A DNA stretch of 53,309 bases from Promineifilum sp. (GTDB lineage Bacteria > Chloroflexota > Anaerolineae > Promineifilales > Promineifilaceae), in contig JAGOZU010000011.1 in NCBI GenBank assembly GCA_018058545.1, positions 1 to 53,309 of the forward strand, given 5' to 3'. The notes under the pieces are model-generated. The model was not told where the DNA came from. It saw nothing but the letters and a program-made list of their open reading frames with translations, and searched no databases. Every line of letters begins with the position of its first letter. Within the stretch, counting starts at the first letter, position 1. Below are positions 2,860-50,554 of the stretch, one piece after another. The translations under genes were made by a program, and so were the position numbers.

Positions 2860-3459
2860 ATGCATGAATTTCTGGAACTGATTCACTCGCGTCGCTCCAT
2901 CCGGCGCTATGAGGCGCGGCCCGTCCCGGCGGATCTCGTCGAGCAAATTCTCACCGCCGCCGTCCGGGCGCCGTCGGCCCACAACCGGCAGCCGTGGCGT
3001 TTCGTCGTCGTCGAGGATGGCGTGGTAAAACGGCGACTGGCAATGGCGATGGGCGAGCGGTTGCGAGAGGACCTGGCGGCCGATGGTCTGTCGCCGGAGC
3101 TGATCGAGCGCGATGCTGGTCGCTCCTTCAATCGGATCAGCGGCGCGCCGCTGATCATCTTATTGTGCCTGACGACGGCCGACATGGATGTCTACCCCGA
3201 CGAACGGCGCGCGCGCAACGAAGCCATCATGGCTGCGCAGAGCGTGGCCATGGCCGGACAGAATATGTTGCTCGCTGCTCATGCCCTGGGGTTGGGCGCG
3301 TGCTGGCTGTGCGGCCCGCTGTTTTGCCCGGCCACTGTGCGTCGGGAGCTTGCCCTGCCTGACGATTGGCAACCACAAGGGCTGGTGACGATAGGGTACC
3401 CGGCTGAAACAAAAGAAAAGACGCGCCATCCGTTGGAATCGCGCGTCCTGTATCGCTAG
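2860..3459 (+). CDS. Nitroreductase family protein
   Basis: A 199-aa FMN-dependent nitroreductase-fold protein. The N-terminal IHSRRSIRRYEARPVP block and VRAPSAHNRQPWRFVVVE (about residues 36-53) are the conserved FMN-binding segments; LGLGACWLCGPLFCP (about 142-156) is the central motif, and the C-terminal LVTIGYPAE is typical. The family reduces nitro compounds, quinones or flavins with NAD(P)H. Similar proteins sit near F420 or BluB-like enzymes, so the substrate is not assigned. The gene converges with RNase J 21 bp away; no strong terminator is seen between them. Confidence 0.88.
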   Translation: MHEFLELIHSRRSIRRYEARPVPADLVEQILTAAVRAPSAHNRQPWRFVVVEDGVVKRRLAMAMGERLREDLAADGLSPELIERDAGRSFNRISGAPLIILLCLTTADMDVYPDERRARNEAIMAAQSVAMAGQNMLLAAHALGLGACWLCGPLFCPATVRRELALPDDWQPQGLVTIGYPAETKEKTRHPLESRVLYR

Positions 3460-3480: not shown

Positions 3481-5127
3481 CTAGAAGACGATTGCCTCGA
3501 TGACCGGTCGCTTGCGCGTCTCGTCATAGAGGTATTTGTTGAGCGCCGACTCGATCTGGCCGTCGGTGATCTCGCGCCCGGCGTTGTGGGCTTCGCGAAC
3601 GGCGCGAGCGATGACCTCTTCCGCGCCCTGCAGCAGTTCCTCGGCTTCCTTCTCGTTGACGAAGCCGCGCGTAGTCAGCCGCGGCCGTCCCTGCAACTCG
3701 CCCTGGCCGTTGGTGCGGGCGACGGCGAAGAAGTAGCCCGCCTGGGCCAGCCGGTCGCGGTCGCGCACCTCCGCCCAGCCGATGTCGCCCACGCCCGCGC
3801 CGTCGACGAAGACGTAGCCGCCCGGCAGCCGGTCGCGCACAGTCATGGAGTAGGGCGTCAGGTCGATGGGCGTGCCGTTTTCCACGATAGCGATGCGCTC
3901 CTGGGGGATGCCCAGCTTCTCGGCCATCTCGGCATGAAGCTTCAGATGTCGCAGTTCGCCGTGGACGGGGATGAGGAACAGCGGTCGTATCAGATTAATC
4001 AGCAGTTTCATCTCCTCCCGACTGGCATGGCCGGAGACGTGGACCTTGGCGACGCGGTCGTATAGAACCGTTGCCCCGCGGCGATAGAGCTGGTTGATGG
4101 TGCGATAGACCAATTCTTCGTTGCCGGGGATGGGGTGGGCGGAGAAGACGACCGTATCGCCCGGCTCGATGCTGAGCTGGTTGTGCCGCCCGCGCGCCAG
4201 ACGGCCGAGCACGGCCGAAGGCTCGCCCTGGGAGCCGGTGACCATGATGACCACCTGGCTGGGCGGCATCTTCACCGCCTGCCCCAGATCGACGATGAGA
4301 TCGTCGGGCAGCTCCAGATAGCCCAGGTTGCGGGCGATCTTGATGGCGTCGCGCATCGAGCGGCCGGCGATGGCCATCTTGCGATTGGATTTGAGCGCTG
4401 CCGCGGCCGCGATCTGCACGCGCGAGATAAGCGAGGCGAAGGTGGCTATGATGATTCGTCCTTGCGCGTTGCGAAACACCTCTTCGAATCCTTCCAGCAA
4501 CTCCATTTCCGACTCGGTCCAGCCCGGCCGGTCGGCGTTGGTGCTGTCGGCCAGCAGGGCCAGCACGCCGCGTTGCGAGAACTCGGCCAGCTTGGCGAAG
4601 TCGGGCGGCCAGCTGTCGATGGGCGTATGGTCAAATTTATAGTCGCCGGTGTGGACGATGAGGCCGACCGGCGTGGTGATGCCGAAGCCGACGCAATCGG
4701 GGATGCTGTGGGCCACGTGGAACGGCTCGATCTTGAACGGGCCGATCTCGATGACCTCGCCCGCCCGGAAGGAGACGAGATCTACCTCGTGCAGGTTTTT
4801 GGATTCACGCAGCTTGTTTTCGATCAGGCCCAGCGTGAGCGGCGTGCCGTAGATGGGCGCATGGATATCATCGACCAGATGCGGCAACGCGCCGATATGG
4901 TCTTCGTGTCCGTGGGTGATCAGGATGGCCCGGACTTTGGAACGCCGGTCGCCCTCCATGAGATAGTTATAGTCGGGGATAATGAGATCGACGCCGAGCA
5001 TGTCGTTCTCGGGGAACATGACGCCCGCGTCGACGATGAGGATATCATCCTCATACTCGATCACGGTCATGTTCTTGCCGATCTCGCCCAGGCCCCCGAG
5101 GGGCAGAATACGTAATGCATTTGTCAT
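3481..5127 (-). CDS. rnj: Ribonuclease J
   Basis: A 548-aa metallo-beta-lactamase/beta-CASP ribonuclease acting in mRNA decay and rRNA maturation by endo- and 5'-3' exonucleolytic cleavage. The protein begins MTNALRILPLGGLGEIGKN, the zinc motif THGHEDHIG lies at about residue 70-78, and the beta-CASP part has SGHASREEM and PVHGELRHL. The C-terminal RNase J domain ends KRPVIEAIVF. A Met 13 codons upstream (5166) is also in frame. The start at 5127 is chosen because a consensus promoter (TTGACG-N17-TACAAT, 5138-5166) overlaps those extra codons. The mRNA would then have a 5' leader of only a few nucleotides. Confidence 0.95.
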   Translation of the reverse strand: MTNALRILPLGGLGEIGKNMTVIEYEDDILIVDAGVMFPENDMLGVDLIIPDYNYLMEGDRRSKVRAILITHGHEDHIGALPHLVDDIHAPIYGTPLTLGLIENKLRESKNLHEVDLVSFRAGEVIEIGPFKIEPFHVAHSIPDCVGFGITTPVGLIVHTGDYKFDHTPIDSWPPDFAKLAEFSQRGVLALLADSTNADRPGWTESEMELLEGFEEVFRNAQGRIIIATFASLISRVQIAAAAALKSNRKMAIAGRSMRDAIKIARNLGYLELPDDLIVDLGQAVKMPPSQVVIMVTGSQGEPSAVLGRLARGRHNQLSIEPGDTVVFSAHPIPGNEELVYRTINQLYRRGATVLYDRVAKVHVSGHASREEMKLLINLIRPLFLIPVHGELRHLKLHAEMAEKLGIPQERIAIVENGTPIDLTPYSMTVRDRLPGGYVFVDGAGVGDIGWAEVRDRDRLAQAGYFFAVARTNGQGELQGRPRLTTRGFVNEKEAEELLQGAEEVIARAVREAHNAGREITDGQIESALNKYLYDETRKRPVIEAIVF

Positions 5128-5137
5128 ATGGTTAAAA

Positions 5138-5166
5138 ATTGTAGGAACTTTTGTTATCGCCGTCAA
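5138..5166 (-). promoter_or_regulatory. rnj promoter, near-leaderless type
   Basis: On the minus strand: TTGACG (5161-5166), 17-bp spacer, TACAAT (5138-5143). The predicted +1 is about 5131-5132 and the start codon is at 5127. No Shine-Dalgarno is present. Confidence 0.75.
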
Positions 5167-5194
5167 AGCGGCCGACCTAACCCGGTCCGCGCGC

Positions 5195-6205
5195 CTAGAG
5201 GGCGGTTGATTGCTGGATGAAGACCCATAGCAAGAAGATGAGGAGGACCATCACAACCGTCAGAACCAGCATGAGAGGCCACATCCGGGGAGGACGTATG
5301 GCCGCCGCCACGGCGGGTATGGGGCGGGCAGACACGGGCTGGGCGACGGCGATCGGCGGCGAGACAACCGGTCGCGGCCGGTAGATCGTGTCCATCATCG
5401 TCTCTTCGCCGGCCGGCGGTATTTTCTCGTCCGGCTGGAACTCCGGGCGAGGGCCGTTCTGCACGATGGCGACGGTGATATTGTCCTCGCCACCGCGCTC
5501 GCAGGCCAGCTGAACCAGAGCGTCGGCCGCATCATCGGGCGGCGCGGCAAGCAGGATCGCGGCGATCTCGTTGTCATCGACGTGGCGGGTCAGGCCGTCG
5601 GAGCACAGCAGCAACAGGTCACCCTGCGCCAGATCGATCTCGAACAGGTCGATAGGCGGTCTGCTCTCCGAACCGATGCTGTAGAGGATGACGTTCTTGT
5701 AGGGATAGATGGCGGCCTCGGCCGGAGTCAGGGCGCCCTCTTCCACCAGACGGGCGACAAGGCTCTGGTCGCGTGTCACCTGTACCAGGGAGCCGCCGCG
5801 CAGCAGATAGGCGCGACTGTCGCCTACGTTGCCGATGTAGGCGCGGCCCTCATGGACGACGACGGCCACCATCGTCGTGGCCATTCGGCGGCTGTCGTCG
5901 CGCTCGGCCGCCAGCTTGCGCAAGTCGGTGTTGGCCGCCTGCATCGCTTCGATCAGTCGATGGCCCCTGCCGTCATTGTTGCCCGATTGCAGATAATGGA
6001 ATTGCGCGCGCTCCCCGGCATAGCGGCTGGCGATCTCGCCCGCGTCGGCGCCGCCGACGCCGTCGGCGACGATATAGAGGCTGCCGTGAAGCAGGCGGTC
6101 GTCAGGCGTTTGGGGTTCGTAGACGGTGACGAAGTCTTCGTTGTGGCCTCGCACCAGGCCGGGATCGGTGCGCCAGGCGGCCGTTAGTGGGGCGGTCGCT
6201 TCCAT
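5195..6205 (-). CDS. Membrane-anchored PP2C-type Ser/Thr protein phosphatase
   Basis: A 336-aa PPM/PP2C phosphatase that removes phosphate from Ser/Thr using Mn2+ or Mg2+. Motifs in order: RTDPGLVRGHNEDF (about 13-26), VADGVGGADAGEIAS (about 50-64), GNVGDSRAYLLR (about 126-137), DQSLVARLVEEG, LLLCSDGLTRHV (about 199-210), and GGEDNITVAIV (about 239-249). A Pro-rich linker leads to a single C-terminal membrane helix (MWPLMLVLTVVMVLLIFLLW), so the enzyme faces the cytoplasm as a tail-anchored protein. ATG 6205 is chosen over the Met at 6241 because TATAGT lies 7 nt upstream of it. The cognate kinase is not in the window. Confidence 0.92.
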   Translation of the reverse strand: MEATAPLTAAWRTDPGLVRGHNEDFVTVYEPQTPDDRLLHGSLYIVADGVGGADAGEIASRYAGERAQFHYLQSGNNDGRGHRLIEAMQAANTDLRKLAAERDDSRRMATTMVAVVVHEGRAYIGNVGDSRAYLLRGGSLVQVTRDQSLVARLVEEGALTPAEAAIYPYKNVILYSIGSESRPPIDLFEIDLAQGDLLLLCSDGLTRHVDDNEIAAILLAAPPDDAADALVQLACERGGEDNITVAIVQNGPRPEFQPDEKIPPAGEETMMDTIYRPRPVVSPPIAVAQPVSARPIPAVAAAIRPPRMWPLMLVLTVVMVLLIFLLWVFIQQSTAL

Positions 6206-6212
6206 TGGGAGC

Positions 6213-6241
6213 ACTATAGCGGGATCGATGACGGCAAGCAA
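6213..6241 (-). promoter_or_regulatory. PP2C promoter, leaderless type
   Basis: Minus strand: TTGCTT (6236-6241), 17-bp spacer, TATAGT (6213-6218). The predicted +1 is about 6206 and the ATG is at 6205. No Shine-Dalgarno. Confidence 0.65.
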
Positions 6242-6319
6242 GGCTTTTAACCTGACGATTGCATGACGAAACGGTGAAAACGGGCGAAATGCGTCGGTGA
6301 ACCGGGTTACCCATCACAA

Positions 6320-6349
6320 AGCGCCGCGGCCTGTCGAGGCCGCGGCGCT
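6320..6349 (-). terminator. Strong hairpin downstream of the subtilase gene
   Basis: Perfect 13-bp GC-rich inverted repeat, AGCGCCGCGGCCT with AGGCCGCGGCGCT, and a 4-nt loop (GTCG read on the plus strand). On the minus strand only TTTGT follows, so the T tract is weak. It lies 76 bp past the subtilase stop and just before the upstream region of the PP2C gene. Probably a terminator or a 3'-end stabilising hairpin. Confidence 0.6.
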
Positions 6350-6424
6350 CATGAAAGGAGGAAGAAAATGAGATTCGGGCTTGCTGCCCTCTCTACTGAT
6401 CAGACAGCATGACCGCCTCTTTTC

Positions 6425-9400
6425 TTACCTGCGAACAGCGGGCAGATAGGTCATGAAGTCACGCAGAACGAAGATACGGGCTTCATTGTCGGCCGGCGAG
6501 CCGGGGCCATACAGCCACAGGACGCCACGCTCGGTTGCGTTGAGCTGATCCTCATAATCGTCAAATGCGTAATCGACCGGGTCGGATTGCGCGTCCAGTT
6601 CGACATAGCCGGCATCGTCTTCACCGAATACGGTGAAGAACCGCTCGCCCAGAGGCACGATGTTCATTCCGGCGATGTAGTCTGTCACCGCACCGGAGTA
6701 GTATCCATCGACCGCGAGGACCTGAGCATCCATCGACGTCGTGAGGAGGTCGTCGGCGTCCATGCCGATCTGCTCGGCGCAGAACGTCAGCACTGTGTTG
6801 GCGCTGTTGGTGTTATGGGTGGTGAAGAAATATGCCGTCGCGTCGGAGGTCGCCACGTCCAGCACGTTCGTGACGTTTCTGGTGTCCGTCGGGAAGTTAA
6901 CGGGATAGTTGTAGACGGCGTAATCCACCGCACCATCCCCATCGACATCCAGATCGACCTCGAAGATCGCGCCCGGATTGGCCAGAGATTGCCGCTCCCA
7001 GGTGTTGACGGCAAAAGCCATCACAAACGAGTCATTGGCGCTACAGAACCCGGCGGGGACCGGGTAGGTCTGGACGCCGAAGTACTTCAGGTCGTTGACG
7101 ATCAGGTTAGAGCCGGGCTGTGTGGACTGGCCTAGTTGGGAGCTGATGCCGAGTAACGAAAAGGTATCGATGTAGGCCTCGGCCTTGCCCGCGTTTTGAA
7201 CGGTCTTGGCCTCCTCATCGACCTGCATATCGGCCGCGCCGCGCGGCAGCACATGCCAGGACATGTGGATATCGTTGTCGGATCGGCCTGCCTCGGTGAA
7301 CCGGATGTAGCCGTCGTACTCGTTGAACGTCAGGGTGGCCGGGTTGTTGCCCTGGCTGCCGCTGTTCATGACCCACGGGTGCAGCGCGTGCTCTTCGTTT
7401 TGCTCCACGGTCATCTCAACGGTGATGGTCGTGCTGCCGCCGGCCGGAACCGTGACCTGATCCGGCAAGGAGATCGCCACTTCGCCGCCTTCGTCATTGG
7501 CAAAGCGGTACTCAACCGAGGTGTCGTAGGTGATCTCTGCGGCCGAGTAGTTGTGGACGACGACGTCGCGCGACCATGAAGCGCCATCGGGGACGTCATG
7601 GAAGCCGAAGGACAACGAACCGGACTTGCTTTCGGCATCCCAGGCGGCGGCCGACGAAGCCACGGCGCGATCGACGCGAACCTCGCCCCCGCCGATGCGG
7701 GTGATCGGAGCCAACGCGCTGCCGGTCGGCGTCACATTATTGGCGATGTTGGTCTCGGCCGTGTTCATCAGAATCGCCTTGACCTCAGCCCAGGTGTAGC
7801 CCGGATTGGCCTGCATCACCAACGCTGCCGCGCCGGAGACCATCGGGGCCGCGCCGGACGTGCCGCCGAAGACGGTTGTGCCGTCGCCGGTGCCGTACTC
7901 GGCCGACAGCGATGCGCCAGGAGCGCCGATGTCGGGCTTCGACAGATTGGTCCCCATGCCCGGGCCGCGGCTGCTGGAGCCGACTATGCTTTGCACGAGA
8001 CTGATATTGTCGGCCGGGTCGAAGGCGACTGTGACGCCGCCGGCGACATTGGCCTTCAGCTTGGCGGCATCGGCCTGGGTGATGGTGAAGCCGGGGATGT
8101 CGTCGGCATAGTCACCGCCGCCGAAGGCGAAGATGTAGGGGTCGCCCGGAGCGACCATACCGATGATACCGGCCATGCCGCCGCCGTAGGCGATGTTATT
8201 GATCTTGACGCTGGCCGAGCAGGCGCCCCGGTCGACGTAGATGATCTTGCCGGTTAATGAGCCGGGCGGATATGGGGCATCAGCCGGGTCGACCGAATTA
8301 ACATCCTCGCCCAGCGAGCAGCCCAGCAGTTGGCCGCCCGCGCCGTCACCGTACTGGAGTGGCGCCTCGAGCTTGGCGGAGAATTCGCCGGACCATGGCT
8401 GATAACCGGCCTGATAGACCCCGGCGATGCTCTCGGGGGTCTTGACGGTCAGGACCGGCATGGAGGCCGAGGGCACGGCCGTCTGAGCCACAGCCAGAGC
8501 CGAGGGCGCGCCGGCGGGCGTGCCGTGGATGTAGGGCAGGTCGCCGCCGTTACCGGCCGAGGCGACCGTCAGAACGCCAACAGCGCTGGCGTTCTCGACC
8601 GCGAATGATGAGTCGTCGGCGATGGCGTCGCCCATGCTGCTGCCCAGGGACATGTTGATGATGTCCACCCGGTCATCCATGTTGCCGTCGCCGTTGGGGT
8701 CGAGGGCGAAATCCATACCCTGGAGCATGGCGATGCCCGAGCAGGAGGTGGAGACGGAGGAGCAGACCTTGACGGCATACAGATCGACGCCGGGGGCCAC
8801 GCCGGAGGCGCCGGGGGTGATGCCGCCGATGATGTCGCCGACATGTGTGCCGTGGCCGCCCTCAGGACCGGCATCCAATGGATCGGGATCAGGCTCTTCG
8901 GCCGTATTCGGCCAGTTCGAGCCTACGAAGTCATACCCGCCGACGACCTTGGCCGTTGGGAAGGTGCCTTCCTCGATGATCGTCGGGTCGTTGTTGAGGA
9001 ATTCATCGACATCACCGGAACCGCCGAAAGCGACGTGGGTGTAATCGATACCGCTATCGTTCACCGCGACCTTGATGCCGGTTCCGTCGAAGCCCAGGGC
9101 CTGGACGGCCGACGCGCCGATATAGGGCACGGTTTCCGACAGGTCCAACTCATAGTCGATGACCGGATTGATGGACTGGACGTTGGGGTTGCGGGCCAGC
9201 GCGCTGAGCGCGGAAGCGTCGATGTGCAGGAAGACCGCGTTCAGAGCCATGCGCGTGCGACCCATATCTTTGAAGTTCGCGTCGAGCGCGCGAGCCGCGG
9301 CGAGGACGCCGGCCTGCTGTGCGTCGATAGCGTCCAGCGCGGCTGTCGCGTCGGCTGAACGCTCGCCACGAGCGAAGCGCTCGGCCATCGACGGTTGGGT

Positions 9401-9652
9401 CAGGCGGACGACCACTCGCTGGGTGCCGGTGGCGTCGACTAGACCGCGATTGAGCTTGAACGGGGAGGCGACGTTTTCGCGGGTGATGGGCGCATCCAGT
9501 TTCGCGTCCGTGAGGTACGCGGGAAGCGCCCGTTGGCTGGAGTTGCCCGGGCCAGGCCGAGAGGTGCTCTGGGCCAGAGCGATGGAAGCTGTCAGGGCCA
9601 TCAGACTCAGGATGGTCAACAGCTTGAGAGTTCGCTTCATAGAGGTTTTCAT
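6425..9652 (-). CDS. Secreted subtilisin-like serine protease (S8) with PA domain
   Basis: A large exported protease of about 1075 aa. A signal peptide covers about residues 1-28 (KRTLKLLTILSLMALTASIA, then AQS). An I9-like propeptide follows (about 75-170). The S8 catalytic triad is visible: Asp199 in VNDSGIDY, His267 in GGHGTHVGD and Ser599 in GGTSGAAP; the oxyanion Asn is in ASAGNGGD. A PA domain is inserted at about 400-550, as in cucumisin-type subtilases, and a Fn3/Ig-like C-terminal region follows. ATG 9652 has GAGG 12 nt upstream; the ATG at 9670 is an alternative. It probably degrades extracellular protein for nutrition. It is a single gene with its own promoter and a hairpin at 6320. 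Confidence 0.93.
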   Translation of the reverse strand: MKTSMKRTLKLLTILSLMALTASIALAQSTSRPGPGNSSQRALPAYLTDAKLDAPITRENVASPFKLNRGLVDATGTQRVVVRLTQPSMAERFARGERSADATAALDAIDAQQAGVLAAARALDANFKDMGRTRMALNAVFLHIDASALSALARNPNVQSINPVIDYELDLSETVPYIGASAVQALGFDGTGIKVAVNDSGIDYTHVAFGGSGDVDEFLNNDPTIIEEGTFPTAKVVGGYDFVGSNWPNTAEEPDPDPLDAGPEGGHGTHVGDIIGGITPGASGVAPGVDLYAVKVCSSVSTSCSGIAMLQGMDFALDPNGDGNMDDRVDIINMSLGSSMGDAIADDSSFAVENASAVGVLTVASAGNGGDLPYIHGTPAGAPSALAVAQTAVPSASMPVLTVKTPESIAGVYQAGYQPWSGEFSAKLEAPLQYGDGAGGQLLGCSLGEDVNSVDPADAPYPPGSLTGKIIYVDRGACSASVKINNIAYGGGMAGIIGMVAPGDPYIFAFGGGDYADDIPGFTITQADAAKLKANVAGGVTVAFDPADNISLVQSIVGSSSRGPGMGTNLSKPDIGAPGASLSAEYGTGDGTTVFGGTSGAAPMVSGAAALVMQANPGYTWAEVKAILMNTAETNIANNVTPTGSALAPITRIGGGEVRVDRAVASSAAAWDAESKSGSLSFGFHDVPDGASWSRDVVVHNYSAAEITYDTSVEYRFANDEGGEVAISLPDQVTVPAGGSTTITVEMTVEQNEEHALHPWVMNSGSQGNNPATLTFNEYDGYIRFTEAGRSDNDIHMSWHVLPRGAADMQVDEEAKTVQNAGKAEAYIDTFSLLGISSQLGQSTQPGSNLIVNDLKYFGVQTYPVPAGFCSANDSFVMAFAVNTWERQSLANPGAIFEVDLDVDGDGAVDYAVYNYPVNFPTDTRNVTNVLDVATSDATAYFFTTHNTNSANTVLTFCAEQIGMDADDLLTTSMDAQVLAVDGYYSGAVTDYIAGMNIVPLGERFFTVFGEDDAGYVELDAQSDPVDYAFDDYEDQLNATERGVLWLYGPGSPADNEARIFVLRDFMTYLPAVRR

Positions 9653-9696
9653 GATCAAGTTTTGCCTCATTCTGTGAAATTGGTTGTGTGAGATCG

Positions 9697-9725
9697 ATCT
9701 AACATTTTCCCCGGCATGCCGTCAG
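9697..9725 (-). promoter_or_regulatory. Candidate promoter of the subtilase gene
   Basis: Minus strand: CTGACG (9720-9725), 17-bp spacer, TTAGAT (9697-9702), four of six consensus matches in each hexamer. The predicted +1 is near 9690, about 20 nt before the Met at 9670. Confidence 0.4.
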
Positions 9726-10070
9726 GCATTGATGACCGGGATGCGGGGACTGATTCGACACTATAGATCCTGTTCGGTTCGGCAGCACCTCCTTGCTCCT
9801 TGAGCTACATAAGCCTTGCATCCGGGAGGGCGAGCGAAGGCGAATGTCTGAGCGGCATAATCCACTTCCGAATCAAATTACCGGCCAAGCATAAAAAGGG
9901 GAGTTGTTATGGTTAGGTTATATGGATATGCATGACAAGCAGATGATGGATCTTCGTGGTTTCTGCGAGTTTCATCTTACCTCACTCGCCGGATGTCAAC
10001 AACTATTAATGGGGACAAAAAAGGGGCATTTTCGGTCAGTGCAGCTGCATGATCGTGATCGGCCGTCTTC

Positions 10071-49678: not shown

Positions 49679-49719
49679 CCACGAATTCGGGCTTTGCTAC
49701 CCCTTGCCACCCCCATAAC

Positions 49720-49761
49720 TTGATCGAGATCAAGGCCACGCGGAATCCCCTGTGCTACGCT
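49720..49761 (+). promoter_or_regulatory. FNR/DNR box and -10 of the RIC promoter
   Basis: TTGATCGAGATCAA (49720-49733) is a perfect TTGAT-N4-ATCAA site. TACGCT (49756-49761) is the -10; the predicted +1 is about 49768, placing the box at -41.5. A class II CRP/FNR-family activator such as FNR or DNR/NNR is expected. Confidence 0.8.
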
Positions 49762-49810
49762 CTCACTAGGCCCGATCGACCGGGCAAAAATTCTGGAGAG
49801 GATAACGATT

Positions 49811-50554
49811 GTGACTATTGATACGATCCCGAACGGCATTGCCGGGAAGATGGTGGGCGATTTCGTCGCTGCCGATTACCGCGCAGCCGCGGTTTTTGAC
49901 AAGTACGGCATCGATTTTTGTTGCGAGGGGCAGACGTCCATCGACCAGGCGTGCCTGGCCAAGGGGGTCGCCCTGGAGACCGTGCTGCATGACCTGGAGC
50001 AGGTTGAGCAAGCGCCGGGACTGGTCGAACGACATGACCAGTGGGCGCTGGATTTTCTGTCCGACTACATCGTGAACCAGTTTCACGCCTACACCAAGGA
50101 CATGTTGCCGCGCATCACGGAGTATGTGGAGACGGTCGCCAACGTCCACGGCGACACCCATCCCGAGACGCGCACCATCGCCGCGCTGTGGCCGGAGCTG
50201 AAGGGTGAGCTGGCCATGCACATGCAGAAGGAAGAGTTGTTACTGTTTCCTTATGTCAAGCGACTGGTGCGCAGCGAGGCCGAGGGTACCTCACCGGCCA
50301 AGCCGCCGTTCGGCTCGGCCAAGGACCTCATCGAGAAGATGGAGGCGGAGCATGACGATACCGGCGGCGTGCTGCTCGAGATGGAGCGCGTCAGCGATGG
50401 CTACGCCCCGCCCGAGGATGCTTGCCCCACCTACCGCACGCTCTACGCCTATCTGAAGGAGTTCGACGCGGCGACCAAGAAGCACGTCCACATGGAGAAC
50501 AATATTCTCTTCCCGCGGACGATACAGCTGGAGCAAACGCTCCTGGCGGGGTAG
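49811..50554 (+). CDS. Iron-sulfur cluster repair di-iron protein (RIC/ScdA/YtfE)
   Basis: A 247-aa protein that repairs Fe-S clusters after nitric oxide or oxidative damage. The N-terminal ScdA-type domain holds the Cys pair in YGIDFCCEGQ (Cys37, Cys38). The hemerythrin-like bundle supplies His/Glu di-iron ligands in NQFHAYTKDMLPRI, AMHMQKEELLLFPYV, EAEHDDTGGVL and KKHVHMENNILFPRT. GTG 49811 is the start, with GGAGAGG upstream. A perfect FNR/DNR box at 49720 fits known control of this family by NO- or oxygen-sensing regulators. Terminated by the hairpin at 50578. Confidence 0.95.
   Translation: MTIDTIPNGIAGKMVGDFVAADYRAAAVFDKYGIDFCCEGQTSIDQACLAKGVALETVLHDLEQVEQAPGLVERHDQWALDFLSDYIVNQFHAYTKDMLPRITEYVETVANVHGDTHPETRTIAALWPELKGELAMHMQKEELLLFPYVKRLVRSEAEGTSPAKPPFGSAKDLIEKMEAEHDDTGGVLLEMERVSDGYAPPEDACPTYRTLYAYLKEFDAATKKHVHMENNILFPRTIQLEQTLLAG

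Follow-up and report, generated by a model that had tools for sequence, protein, structure and literature searches.

A candidate operator for a DNR-like CRP/FNR regulator at the RIC promoter of a Promineifilum genome (Chloroflexota)

Results

The RIC Promoter

The window (the whole stretch of 53,309 nucleotides of Promineifilum sp. DNA that was analyzed) contains a gene for a di-iron protein of iron-sulfur repair. Its product scored 212.3 bits against TIGR03652 (cut-off 204.7) and has the ScdA_N (PF04405) and Hemerythrin (PF01814) domains, which place it in the RIC/YtfE family. The gene and the elements upstream of it are as follows:

49719-49734, + strand: DNR/FNR-type box CTTGATCGAGATCAAG, with the core palindrome TTGATCGAGATCAA at 49720-49733
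49734-49737, + strand: GGCC flank immediately 3' of the box (about -34 to -31)
49756-49761, + strand: -10 element TACGCT
49768, + strand: transcription start, inferred from spacing
49795-49801, + strand: ribosome-binding site GGAGAGG of the RIC gene
49811-50554, + strand: RIC (YtfE/ScdA/DnrN-type di-iron iron-sulfur repair protein), 247 aa, GTG start

An earlier note on this DNA had described a box that fits the FNR-family consensus in all ten half-site bases, and the core at 49720-49733 does match at all ten. A C stands before it and a G after it, and these flanks also agree with the DNR consensus, CTTGATnnnnATCAAG (PMC1274295). The -10 element lies exactly 22 bp past the box, which is the class II activator spacing reported in the note, and the TGC ahead of it makes this an extended -10 (TGC-TACGCT). 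The position of -41.5 given for the box centre was reproduced when the -10 element was numbered -12 to -7, which puts the inferred start site at 49768. On the minus strand, which carries a divergent small ORF, there is no -10 element at 22 bp from the box, and class II activation of that ORF was ruled out.

Class-II-Spaced Sites in the Same Genome

The genome from which the window comes (G000) is represented by 3.6 Mb of sequence and is 98% complete. The frequency of TTGAT in 78 kb of this organism's DNA (63% GC) predicts 2.7 perfect boxes for a sequence of 3.6 Mb. Five were seen, three of them inside genes (on contigs C27, C140, and C181). The box alone is weak evidence because the number seen is so close to the number expected, and the box count was discarded as evidence in its own right. 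The same figures are what favors the view that the box before RIC is a chance palindrome. Against this view stands the exact spacing: a perfect box followed after 22 bp by TANNNT is expected 0.02 times in the genome and was found twice, before RIC and before a ferredoxin-DUF2249 operon on contig C29. The probability of a perfect box within one given 150-bp upstream region is near 1e-4. As the box is also kept upstream of RIC in relatives and enriched in genomes that carry the candidate regulator (see below), there is next to no likelihood that it arose by chance.

When one mismatch was allowed in the box and TANNNT was kept perfect, three more class-II-spaced sites were found, before a DUF59-CopD operon (C11), a flavodoxin-nitroreductase pair (at 2084 in the window), and nirK (C31). 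All five sites lie no more than about 95 bp upstream of a correctly oriented gene. A genome scan of the kind the note had proposed returned nirK, ferredoxin-DUF2249, DUF59-CopD, and flavodoxin as genes that share the box at the spacing seen before RIC.

The site within the window is arranged as follows:

2084-2097, + strand: second class-II-spaced box, TTGACCTGGATCAA (9/10 half-site bases)
2120-2125, + strand: -10 element TATGAT, 22 bp past the 2084 box
2176-2709, + strand: flavodoxin, putative regulon member (PF00258, 71 bits)
2860-3459, + strand: nitroreductase-family protein (PF00881, 134 bits), 3' of the flavodoxin gene

The nitroreductase-family gene is possibly in one operon with the flavodoxin gene. 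The TTGAC variant found in the 2084 box also precedes the flavodoxin orthologue of the relative G004 (L110), and flavodoxin genes are preceded by boxes in G004, G032, and G046.

A Candidate Regulator

A search with the HTH_Crp_2 profile identified three full CRP/FNR proteins in the genome, with the recognition helices RISVNK (L006), LYNVSR (L007), and SESISR (L008). In FNR and DNR, an E-x-x-S-R helix pairs with TTGAT. L008 is the only one of the three proteins with such a helix, and it provides the CRP/FNR-family regulator with a matching recognition helix that the note had called for. L006 was ruled out as the regulator that binds the box by its helix.

G000:C172:26768-27433: CRP/FNR regulator L008, FNR/DNR-type helix, cysteine-free

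L008 scored 47 bits against PF13545, above the cut-off, and has the CRP/FNR architecture of a sensor domain and an HTH_Crp domain; its best matches in both phmmer and Foldseek are CRP/FNR proteins. None of the NCBIfam names reached its cut-off for L008 (the best was FtrB, with 104 bits versus 211). By phmmer, the closest solved sequences are cAMP-type CRPs and DNR (3dkw) ranks 11th with 67 bits, and by Foldseek, DNR 3dkw is the top match of the modeled protein (E 3.7e-12, TM 0.50; the model has a moderate pLDDT of 77). L008 and P. aeruginosa DNR share about 25% identity. All ten aligned regulators have either ESISR or ETVSR in the helix. We suggest that the regulator works like DNR, an assignment that is based on the helix, the motif, and the regulon. 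Contig C172 ends 23 bp past the stop codon of L008, so that the next gene, which in relatives would be driven from a box, lies beyond the contig end.

The boxes of FNR and DNR are nearly identical and the E-x-x-S-R helix is common to both, as would be expected if the regulator were an oxygen-sensing [4Fe-4S] FNR and its targets an anaerobiosis regulon. However, L008 contains no cysteines, its orthologues contain 0-2, and the N-terminal cysteine cluster is absent; moreover, the set of sites tracks nirK. An oxygen-sensing FNR is therefore highly unlikely. The note had predicted a CRP/FNR-type regulon responding to NO or to anaerobiosis. The predicted regulon was found, in the form of sites, and because the regulator is cysteine-free, the DNR-like reading, with NO as the signal, is favored over [4Fe-4S] FNR.

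Sites in Genomes with and without the Regulator

A full-length orthologue of L008 (at least 55% identity) is present in eight of the relatives searched, and one further relative (G045) has a fragment. We compared these eight genomes and G000 (49.9 Mb in all) with ten relatives that lack the regulator (60.3 Mb). A reversed-pattern control (AACTA...TAGTT) was set aside, as its word frequency is not matched (CTAG-type words are often rare), and the genomes without the regulator and the counts of one-mismatch sites were used as controls instead. Perfect box-N22-TANNNT sites numbered 24 in the nine regulator-carrying genomes and 2 in the ten others. As a share of all sites with at most one mismatch, these are 24/77 versus 2/109 (Fisher 8e-9), and by sequence length the same comparison gives a binomial probability of 6e-7; both values are indicative and overstate independence, because the genomes are related and G010 and G030 share near-identical sites. 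NirK proteins that score over the TIGR02376 cut-off are found in 6/9 regulator-carrying genomes (7/9 if a split copy is counted) versus 0/10 of the others.

The perfect class II sites align as TTGATCTAGATCAAGGCC-N18-TATNCT. The box is followed by GG in 20 of the 24 and by GGC in 18. This GGC is strongly conserved, downstream of the box only, and overlaps the -35 region.

We also considered whether the box is bound by another CRP/FNR protein, of the nosZ-linked L007 type (helix L-Y-x-V-S-R). This helix shares its S-R with FNR and DNR, and G014 has an L007-type gene a short way upstream of a DUF2249 gene that is itself preceded by a box. However, L007-type genes occur in 19/19 genomes, among them the ten in which perfect sites are nearly absent, the glutamate of the helix is replaced by tyrosine, and the organism's own nosZ has no box nearby. 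We regard binding by an L007-type protein as very unlikely, and L007 was ruled out as the regulator of the box on the ground that all 19 genomes have it, whatever their number of sites. On the nosZ contig of G000 (C69; L218, 131-10014), a NosL-like gene lies at 131-829, a NosZ-like gene (717 aa) at 4773-6926, and the L007-type regulator gene near nosZ at 9304-10014, with no TTGAT box nearby. This contig contains no 9/10 box, nor an 8/10 box with TANNNT at 22 bp.

RIC Promoters in Relatives

Four relatives (G004, G030, G033, and G046) encode a full-length RIC protein, and all four carry the regulator. As expected under the note's interpretation, the RIC orthologue is preceded by the box in 4/4 of them, with one perfect box and three 9/10 boxes; a 9/10 box is expected by chance in 350-400 bp with a probability of roughly 0.015 (estimated from 142 sites). 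The RIC genes of G004 and G033 also have a -10 element 22 bp past the box, and at those of G030 and G046 (both with 9/10 boxes) TANNNT is absent at that distance.

In a survey of RIC loci in Chloroflexota, the box was present at L125 (G033, regulator 55% identical) and L128 (G004, 76%). L128 belongs to an Anaerolineae bacterium of the same genus as the source of the window, which puts the window in the Chloroflexota. No 8/10 box was found within 600 bp at L123, L126, L127, or L129, and no 9/10 box was found upstream at L124. In the genomes of these five loci, the best homologues of the regulator do not exceed 49% identity over any stretch, and their readable helices are R-E-x-x-G-R or P-D-x-x-N-R. 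Among the Chloroflexota RIC genes checked, the box is thus limited to genomes with an L008-type regulator. The palindrome before RIC is very probably a genuine binding site for a regulator.

Content of the Predicted Regulon

Nitrite-reductase genes with TTGATnnnnATCAA sites are nirK of G000 (9/10), G010, G030, G032, G033, and G046, and nrfHA of G014. In G010, G030, G032, and G046, the box lies about 6-9 bp past the stop codon of the regulator gene and is followed by a cytochrome c-cupredoxin-NirK gene. NirK with fused N-terminal cytochrome c and cupredoxin domains directly follows the regulator at L099, L106, L107, L108, and L120. At G014:C228 (L103), a box and nrfHA come after a second regulator with an E-T-V-S-R helix (43% identical), an arrangement that suggests a nitrite-ammonifying variant of the regulon. 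The nirK gene of G004, a regulator-carrying genome of the same genus, has no 9/10 box (L219, G004:C47).

Other box-preceded genes in relatives are ferredoxin-DUF59-Mrp or ferredoxin-DUF59-CopD operons, DUF2249 genes, flavodoxin genes, and a gene for a multi-pass membrane protein without a Pfam match. The predicted content of the regulon (RIC, nirK, nrfHA, iron-sulfur ferredoxins, DUF59/Mrp, DUF2249, and flavodoxin) is coherent.

Discussion

Our results point to the box before RIC as probably the operator of the DNR-like CRP/FNR activator L008, at a class II promoter at which NO from NirK would switch on RIC. L008 would bind the palindrome centered at -41.5 and act as a class II activator together with the extended -10 element TACGCT to turn on RIC. 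The signal would be NO made by the organism's own NirK and sensed through haem. From promoters of like build, the same regulator would drive nirK, ferredoxin-DUF2249, DUF59-CopD, and flavodoxin, so that NirK may be induced along with the repair of iron-sulfur clusters and with substitute electron carriers.

The part of this model that concerns the signal has a competitor in which the regulator and the sites are the same and the effector is nitrite, redox state, CO, or low oxygen sensed through haem. Sequence does not reveal the effector, and the three histidines H122, H181, and H207, each kept in 9/10 aligned regulators, are compatible with haem and not specific for it. The regulon (nirK, RIC, and iron-sulfur handling) and the co-occurrence with NirK point instead to NO, and we consider a signal other than NO to be unlikely.

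The proposed NO-responsive regulon resembles the DNR regulon of Pseudomonas and beta-proteobacteria, in which CTTGATnnnnATCAAG sites precede nitrite-reductase genes (PMC1274295) and the targets are nir, nor, and nos (Rodionov et al. 2005, PMC1274295). In both cases an FNR-like regulator without a cysteine cluster is associated with NO-related targets. It differs from the DNR regulon in that the host is a member of the Chloroflexota, the organism's own nosZ has no site, RIC, ferredoxin-DUF2249, DUF59/Mrp, and flavodoxin are prominent among the targets, and the box has a one-sided GGC flank after it. FNR and ANR share the core box and the E-x-x-S-R helix with the system described here, but the cysteine cluster is absent here and the targets center on nitrite and NO. 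In alpha-proteobacteria, nir genes are likewise under the control of a CRP/FNR protein, NnrR, but its consensus is ctTTGcgnnnncgCAAag (PMC1274295), in contrast to TTGAT here. Control of ytfE/dnrN by NsrR, HcpR, and NorR (PMC1274295) also places RIC under an NO- or nitrite-responsive regulator, although the regulators and the operators are different.

Rodionov et al. 2005 (PMC1274295) make no mention of Chloroflexi. In a study of CRP/FNR proteins in an anammox microbiome, DNR is named only in Rhodocyclaceae, although Anaerolineales bins are present (PMC8510549). RegPrecise 3.0 has 30 Chloroflexi regulogs. Our searches of the literature returned no DNR-type regulon in Chloroflexota. What is new is thus the lineage, the Chloroflexota; the kind of regulon is already known. 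Somewhat tentatively, we propose that the Chloroflexota have a CRP/FNR subgroup of their own that recognizes the DNR box of proteobacteria extended by a GGC flank. Having converged on the denitrification regulon, or having been exchanged with it between phyla, this subgroup would link NirK to a set of repair functions made up of RIC, ferredoxin, DUF59/Mrp, DUF2249, and flavodoxin.

NO control of denitrification has so far been worked out mainly in proteobacteria. The regulator, the operator, and the list of targets provide testable predictions for a phylum that is common in activated sludge, and the ferredoxin, DUF59/Mrp, DUF2249, and flavodoxin genes are candidates for a role in coping with the damage that NO does to iron-sulfur clusters.
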